Part shown: piece after piece, positions 34,461 to 34,919 of the stretch
Layout of the letters: each line of letters starts with the position of its first letter
Position numbering within the stretch: the first letter of the stretch is position 1
NCBI GenBank assembly: GCA_905182555.1
Contig: CAJJBX010000001.1
Coordinates: 1-64,000, forward strand
Origin: an uncultured Ilumatobacter sp.
GTDB lineage: Bacteria > Actinomycetota > Acidimicrobiia > Acidimicrobiales > Ilumatobacteraceae
Length of the DNA: 64,000 bases
Reading direction: 5' to 3'
The notes under the pieces: generated by a model
The model's database searches: none
What the model was told of the DNA's origin: nothing
Seen by the model: only the letters and a program-made list of their open reading frames with translations
Translations under genes and position numbers: made by a program

Positions 34461-34919
34461 TTAGCGGAACTGATCGAGATCGGCCGCGATGTCTTCTGGT
34501 GTGGTCGGTGGTGTACCGTTTGACGGGGTTGCCATCTTGATCGATCAGGAACTTCTCAAAGTTCCAGGCGATGTCAGATCGACGGACGGGGGACCACTGA
34601 ATCGGCTTATCGTAGTGGCGCCGGCACCGTTCACTTCGATCTTCGAGAACATGGGGAAGTTCACATCGAACTTCGAGGTTGCGAATTCGAGGATCTCAGC
34701 GTCGGTGCCGGGCTCTTGGTTCGCGAACTGGTTGCACGGAAATCCGAGCACGACGACGTCGTCGTTGTCATTGTGAAGCGCACGCAGACCTGCGTACTGA
34801 GGCGTGAGGCCTCAAGCGCTGGCGACGTTGACGACCAGCGCAAGGTTGCCCTTGAGCTCGCCGAAGCTCACCTGTTCGCCGGTGATGGACGTCATTTCGA
34901 GATCATGGAAGTTAGTCAT
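34461..34919 (-). CDS. Selenocysteine-containing glutathione peroxidase (UGA at catalytic position; two further frame breaks)
   Basis: Thiol peroxidase of the GPx family. Starting MTNFHDLEMTSITGEQ, the sequence runs LALVVNVASA, then an in-frame TGA (34814-34812), then GLTPQYAGL and LGFPCNQFANQEPG, all in one frame. Residue 36 is exactly the catalytic Cys/Sec, so I read TGA as selenocysteine. The conserved Gln is in FANQEPG and the Trp/Asn in IAWNFEKFLID. A SECIS-like hairpin lies directly 3' of the TGA. After NFPMFSKIEVNGAGA the frame shifts (DKPIQWSP, DIAWNFEKFL, GNPVKRY) and again near the end (PTTPEDIAADLDQFR, stop at 34461-34463). These two breaks are inferred to be indel errors like others nearby, though early decay is possible. 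Confidence 0.87.
34780..34814 (-). promoter_or_regulatory. Bacterial SECIS element of the GPx gene
   Basis: Downstream of the UGA (34814-34812) a hairpin at bases +15 to +32 folds as GTACGCA-GGTC-TGCGTGC, six Watson-Crick pairs and one G-U, with loop GGTC. The tip GCAGGTCTGC is the same as the SelB-binding tip of the E. coli fdhF SECIS as I remember it, and the distance to the UGA is only three bases greater. A second short stem TGAGGC/GCCTCA begins at the UGA itself. Confidence 0.75.

Follow-up and report, generated by a model that had tools for sequence, protein, structure and literature searches.

A glutathione peroxidase gene with a catalytic in-frame UGA, predicted to encode selenocysteine, and an fdhF-tipped hairpin in an uncultured Ilumatobacter

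The peroxidase gene and its surroundings

The window, the whole stretch of 64,000 nucleotides analysed here, carries on its minus strand, at 34919-34461, a gene of the glutathione peroxidase (GPx) family that is interrupted at its catalytic codon by a TGA. The 5' part consists of an ATG at 34919 and 34 further codons (MTNFHDLEM...NVASA, 34815-34919) and is followed by the TGA at 34814-34812, the predicted selenocysteine (Sec) codon, after which the translation proceeds in frame with GLTPQYAGLRALHNDNDDVVVLGFPCNQFANQEPG. This 3' part is conserved and in frame over 57 codons (34641-34811), including the Gln of the CNQF motif. In profile searches against PF00255, the 5' part alone scored 21.6 bits, below the cut-off of 27, the 3' part alone scored 62.3 bits, and the gene read across its one internal TGA scored 108.7 bits. 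When the joined protein was aligned, the TGA stood opposite the catalytic Cys of homologues from the family, Ilumatobacteraceae. An earlier reading of the DNA, made from the sequence only, had placed the stop exactly on the catalytic Cys/Sec with 35 residues before it, and had followed a conserved frame for about 60 codons beyond; both claims were borne out. A sequencing error at the TGA is very improbable, since no fewer than 38 further Ilumatobacteraceae genomes carry both this TGA and the hairpin behind it. Further downstream, at about 34510-34640 of the same strand, lies a damaged stretch with frame breaks, and the gene ends at 34461-34509, where frame reading and comparison with relatives show the first frame resumed (TPEDIAADLDQFR, stop TAA). 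This was the only GPx match in the source assembly, which is 72.7% complete.

The GPx gene is convergent with coaE (dephospho-CoA kinase, 33153-34388, plus strand), which forms a single-frame fusion with a gamma-glutamyl-cyclotransferase-like domain (PF06094; score 24.4 bits, cut-off 22.8). The span of this fusion is a single open reading frame in one relative (G012), and in another (G034) the second part matches an open reading frame of the opposite strand. Between the two genes, at 34410-34443, lies an inverted repeat that is terminator-like by its shape; it was absent from the output of the terminator scan of the window.

The hairpin behind the UGA and the Sec-decoding genes

Folding of the minus strand gave a SECIS-like hairpin at 34780-34797, corresponding to bases +15 to +32 after the TGA, as had been claimed from the sequence. 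It reads GTACGCA-GGTC-TGCGTGC (RNA, GUACGCA-GGUC-UGCGUGC), with a stem of 7 bp and a GGUC loop at 34790-34787. The model of bacterial SECIS (bSECIS) elements given in section 5 of PMC13188914 allows an apical loop of 3-9 nt, an upper stem of 4-16 bp, G in the first two loop positions, a spacing of 16-37 nt between UGA and loop, and a free energy of -7.5 kcal/mol or lower. The hairpin fits this model, with a loop of 4 nt that begins with G, a stem of 7 bp and a spacing of 21 nt, and the 18-nt element lay at or below -7.5 kcal/mol in 38 of the 39 UGA genes of the family (range -6.6 to -8.5, mean -8.45 kcal/mol). The single gene above this value (-6.6) appears to be L053, which alone among the variants has a G-U pair in the upper stem; it is not the window gene. 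Rfam gave no SECIS match at the locus and only three tRNAs in the whole window, and is therefore not informative on this point. When random synonymous codons were drawn for the same residues, a 7-bp stem arose in 57,725 of 2,000,000 draws (about 3%); what places the hairpin beyond chance is its invariance in relatives. Two further features were considered and set aside: a lower hairpin pairing the UGA, which needs CCT at codon +4 (true in 27/39), and a T before the UGA, which is found in 39/39 family genes and in 35/80 listed genes of the GTDB scan described below.

The tip of the hairpin, GCAGGTCTGC, occurs in E. coli fdhF, since 5,368 of 5,426 genomes matched a 41-nt fdhF query. The sequence-only reading had equated the two tips at nearly the same distance from the UGA, and indeed the 10-nt tip GCAGGUCUGC, with GGUC at its centre, is identical, whereas 18 bases separate UGA and loop in fdhF and 21 in the window gene. 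The two elements also differ in the stem sequence below the tip and belong to different gene families. The tip alone is not rare, with two exact copies in the 64-kb window. A scan of the source assembly for further sites (TGA, then 12-24 bases on a CAGGTCTG tip, with G or C before the tip) gave 12 matches, against 6 for a backward-pattern control. By frame length alone, the GPx site was the best, with 97 + 88 open codons around the TGA, followed by sites with 51 + 37 and 66 + 26.

The source assembly (2.56 Mb in 26 contigs) contains all four genes that the sequence-only reading had proposed to look for, namely selA, selB, selD and selC, and a lack of selB or selC, on which that reading would have given up its proposal, was not found. 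SelB scored above its curated cut-off and has the GTPase domains and the SelB winged helix, and the SelA gene adjoins it. The tRNA-Sec scored 64.2 bits, above the cut-off of 47, and ARAGORN called it tRNA-SeC with anticodon tca. The selD gene lies on the window's contig, about 4.4 kb beyond the right end of the window (G000:C1:68369-69286, L050), and has one in-frame TGA of its own in the context HGAG-TGA-GCK, the known Sec site of SelD; GGTC was absent from the 40 bases after this TGA. Of 34 long open reading frames in the window, 21 end in UGA, which makes it the commonest stop there and excludes a general reassignment of UGA.

Conservation in the family and across phyla

A draw of 150 Ilumatobacteraceae genomes, the source included, gave 133 with a GPx match, and a TGA was found inside GPx in at least 39 of the 150, the source among them. 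All ten genomes of the genus, again with the source, belong to this set, and in eight of the nine same-genus relatives the UGA gene was the sole GPx match among the matches listed. The window gene and 38 other family UGA genes were compared with 24 Cys-GPx genes, which are the carriers of a Cys codon among the 30 family GPx loci listed. The TGA occupied the catalytic codon in 39/39 UGA genes, and a 7-bp hairpin (G-U pairs counted) with loop GGTC was present in 39/39 of them and in 0/24 Cys-GPx, where pairing did not exceed 2 bp. Codons +5 to +9 read CAG TAC GCA GGT CTG in all 39 UGA genes and codon +10 reads CGT in 38, whereas in the Cys-GPx set codons +5 and +7 to +9 vary, TAC is constant and codon +10 encodes Glu. 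Arg at codon +10 is peculiar to the UGA set (37/38 relatives, against Glu in 24/24 Cys-GPx). Summed over the nine same-genus relatives, 121 synonymous changes were counted in 50 codons outside the hairpin and none in the 7 codons inside it; outside the hairpin codons, synonymous changes outnumbered nonsynonymous ones against eight of these relatives and equalled them against one. Stem changes among the 39 genes affect only one side of a pair (A or G close to the base, and one G-C to G-U), and the helix is backed by invariance, without covariation.

SelB (E <= 1e-70) was detected in 37/39 UGA genomes versus 76/111 of the others, and tRNA-Sec (E <= 1e-8) in 34/39 versus 69/111, with Fisher values of 0.0004 and 0.002, respectively, that ignore relatedness. 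Both were below the thresholds in two UGA genomes, G121 (69% complete) and G036 (89%), and tRNA-Sec alone was below threshold in three more. The counts among the other genomes indicate that Sec decoding is common also among family members in which no UGA-GPx was observed. In a class-wide draw of 198 genomes, UGA-GPx was found in three further genomes outside the family; these share the tip and loop, one of them (L232) with an A-C mismatch in the stem. In a draw of 119 genomes from the phylum, 17 matching genomes lay outside the class, all of them without a UGA-GPx. The cassette is also present in Ilumatobacter nonamiensis YM16-303 (NZ_BAOL01000065.1), whose GPx row is identical to one of the same-genus rows.

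The Sec and Cys forms of the family belong to the same Pfam family and have the same active-site residues, Gln, Trp and Asn being kept in 38/38 UGA relatives and 24/24 Cys-GPx. They differ, besides the codon and the hairpin, in a Cys between QEP and FP, which is found in 24/24 Cys-GPx and is absent from 39/39 family UGA genes and from 79/80 listed GTDB UGA genes. This is presumably the resolving Cys of thioredoxin-type GPx, and by this second Cys we take the Ilumatobacteraceae Cys-GPx to be of that type. Among solved structures, an intact same-genus relative matched yeast HYR1 best (3cmi_A, E 9.5e-41) and also animal GPX4 (2obi_A, 9e-35), both eukaryotic proteins; animal GPX4 relies on a SECIS element in its 3'-UTR. 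In the motif VNGDGAx, residue x is Cys in 18/38 family UGA-GPx (L052-L089) and His in 24/24 family Cys-GPx, and this Cys is possibly an alternative resolving residue.

The GTDB genomes were scanned with a pattern consisting of the UGA and the first 13 hairpin bases, which returned at least 120 stretches, of which 80 are listed. All 120 are GPx genes, 119 by a motif test and one that ends at its contig's end and yet reads GLTPQYAGLRTLH. By record title, they come from Actinomycetota (54), Pseudomonadota (49), Myxococcota (13), Deltaproteobacteria (2), Spirochaetota (1) and Microthrix (1); individual labels may be wrong, as metagenome assemblies make up the majority of the 80 listed records. Since the pattern fixes 13 of the 18 hairpin bases, the invariance seen in GTDB is partly due to selection of the matches, and the five bases of the 3' arm are the sole free test; this arm reads CGTAC or CGTGC in 115 of the 120. 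A quick tree was built from 122 rows (19 of the 38 family UGA relatives, 78 of the 80 listed GTDB genes, the 24 Cys forms and the window gene), with Cys rows from the family only and with 47 of 115 inner branches open. In this tree the UGA rows form a group separate from the Cys forms (support 94, not starred) and sort mostly by phylum, with a few odd placements.

Bacterial Sec-GPx is already known. It is treated as an accepted family (GPX-like, UxxT) in the available parts of PMC1088965, PMC2398784, PMC1794560 and PMC13188914, with 5 sequences counted in the Sargasso Sea set and 40 in the GOS set (PMC1088965, PMC2398784, PMC13188914), and Treponema denticola is among the Sec-GPx genomes of PMC1794560. 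As far as these parts describe it, it resembles the window gene in its PF00255 domain, the UGA at the catalytic residue and the SECIS directly after it. No report of Sec-GPx in Ilumatobacter or Acidimicrobiia was found in the literature searched, and PMC12013277 and PMC5029168 gave no match for GPx, Ilumatobacter or Acidimicrobiia. The interest of the present gene is the near-identical SECIS across phyla, on which no statement was found in the parts of PMC1088965, PMC2398784 and PMC13188914 that were available. The last of these, a 2026 review, describes many putative bSECIS elements as unlike each other and unlike those of E. coli, which makes a fixed Sec-GPx element notable. We propose tentatively, and as somewhat short of an even chance, that the SECIS of one Sec-GPx lineage is a portable cassette of 18 fixed bases, tipped as in fdhF, which would have stayed the same nearly letter for letter while the protein diverged and the cassette moved among Actinomycetota, Pseudomonadota and Myxococcota. 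On this proposal, the SelBs of three phyla would read one RNA word, the word would dictate the peptide Ala-Gly-Leu-Arg (with Glu for Arg in the family Cys forms), and the switch to Sec would go with the loss of the resolving Cys. With one protein family carrying a single fdhF-tipped element across phyla, a natural foreign SECIS becomes available for testing SelB recognition in E. coli, and the Sec forms without and Cys forms with the second Cys offer a clean set of pairs for the question of why some peroxidases retain Sec.

Predicted decoding, public annotation and alternative readings

The gene at 34919-34461 is, with high confidence, a GPx gene with a catalytic UGA for which decoding as Sec is predicted, by SelB acting on the downstream hairpin. 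In this process SelA and SelD would make Sec-tRNA-Sec, and SelB would bring it to the ribosome, its winged-helix end holding the GGUC tip of the hairpin that begins 15 bases past the UGA, whereupon the ribosome would insert Sec and continue reading. The enzyme would reduce peroxides by means of its selenolate. Lacking the presumed resolving Cys, the Sec forms probably depend for their regeneration on a small thiol or some other partner rather than on a thioredoxin-type intramolecular disulfide.

The public proteins were searched with the post-UGA half of an intact relative, and the best 120 of 8,000 scored candidates were considered. Of these, 93 are without the catalytic motif (98 to 124 residues), 20 have Cys, 6 Trp and 1 Arg at the site, and 15 of the 20 Cys forms have a Cys in the QEP-to-FP segment. 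The expectation that gene callers would report two hypothetical fragments held insofar as the catalytic part is missing from these 93, but not as regards the naming, since PF00255 was found in all 120 and many are called glutathione peroxidase. The only GPx match of the assembly belongs to a kind of gene whose best public matches mostly lack the catalytic part or, in six cases, carry Trp. The Trp stands at the Sec position in P0029, P0030, P0045, P0071, P0087 and P0098, where the UGA has apparently been translated by another genetic code.

One alternative would make the UGA a normal stop codon and the half behind it a relic or a gene of its own. This would agree with UGA being the most frequent stop of the window and with the truncated public proteins, but at least 38 further genomes of the family have a UGA at this catalytic codon, flanked on either side by conserved coding sequence, and the hairpin and the decoding genes are present, which leaves this reading very improbable. 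Hardly more can be said for a UGA read as another residue, be it Trp or the product of near-cognate read-through: the six public matches with W at the site are what translation of TGA under another genetic code would give, and against such a reading stand the 21 of 34 long window frames that UGA terminates, the Cys aligned at this position in family homologues and the tRNA-Sec with anticodon tca. The hairpin could also be a functionless by-product of the conserved peptide YAGLR, as about 3% of random synonymous draws give a 7-bp stem; this too is scarcely credible, given the hairpin in 39/39 UGA genes and 0/24 Cys-GPx, the absence of synonymous changes in its codons, and an Arg that is likewise characteristic of the UGA genes.

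A weightier alternative concerns the damaged stretch. The GPx frame of the window is not intact to the gene's end, whereas it is open in all nine same-genus relatives. Compared with them, the window copy shows about 50 dissimilar bases, is about 13 bases shorter, and differs by 2 bases further on, beyond which the first frame is restored and reaches the same end as in the relatives; the Gln of the active site is in frame, and the Trp and Asn fall in the damaged part, outside the first frame. The lineage may therefore encode a Sec-GPx while the copy in the source strain is a true pseudogene and the damage real. The two frame breaks, the dissimilar bases and the shortening are unlike a homopolymer slip, and the assembly yielded no other GPx, so a strain-specific pseudogene is retained as an unlikely but appreciable reading. 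The kept UGA, hairpin and 57 downstream codons, an identity of 92% with a same-genus relative across 92 aligned columns and the open same-genus copies speak against it. So do frame splits in 2 of the 27 further gene regions of the window that were compared, which indicate local assembly error and fit an assembly of this completeness; in that survey rows below 55% identity were dropped, by which 60629-61944, earlier found in two frames, was excluded. The damage at about 34640-34510 is accordingly more likely an assembly error than the mark of a dead gene. The sequence-only reading, which had put the two later breaks down to sequence errors, is upheld as to error being the likelier cause, but the pattern, with its run of dissimilar bases, is not that of simple slips. 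Elsewhere in the window, a methyltransferase gene (30614-31326, plus strand) is clearly split over two frames near 30958-30988, which again points to local sequence errors, and the match at 19494-20526 to a same-genus relative runs in two frames, a case that internal repeats make less clear.
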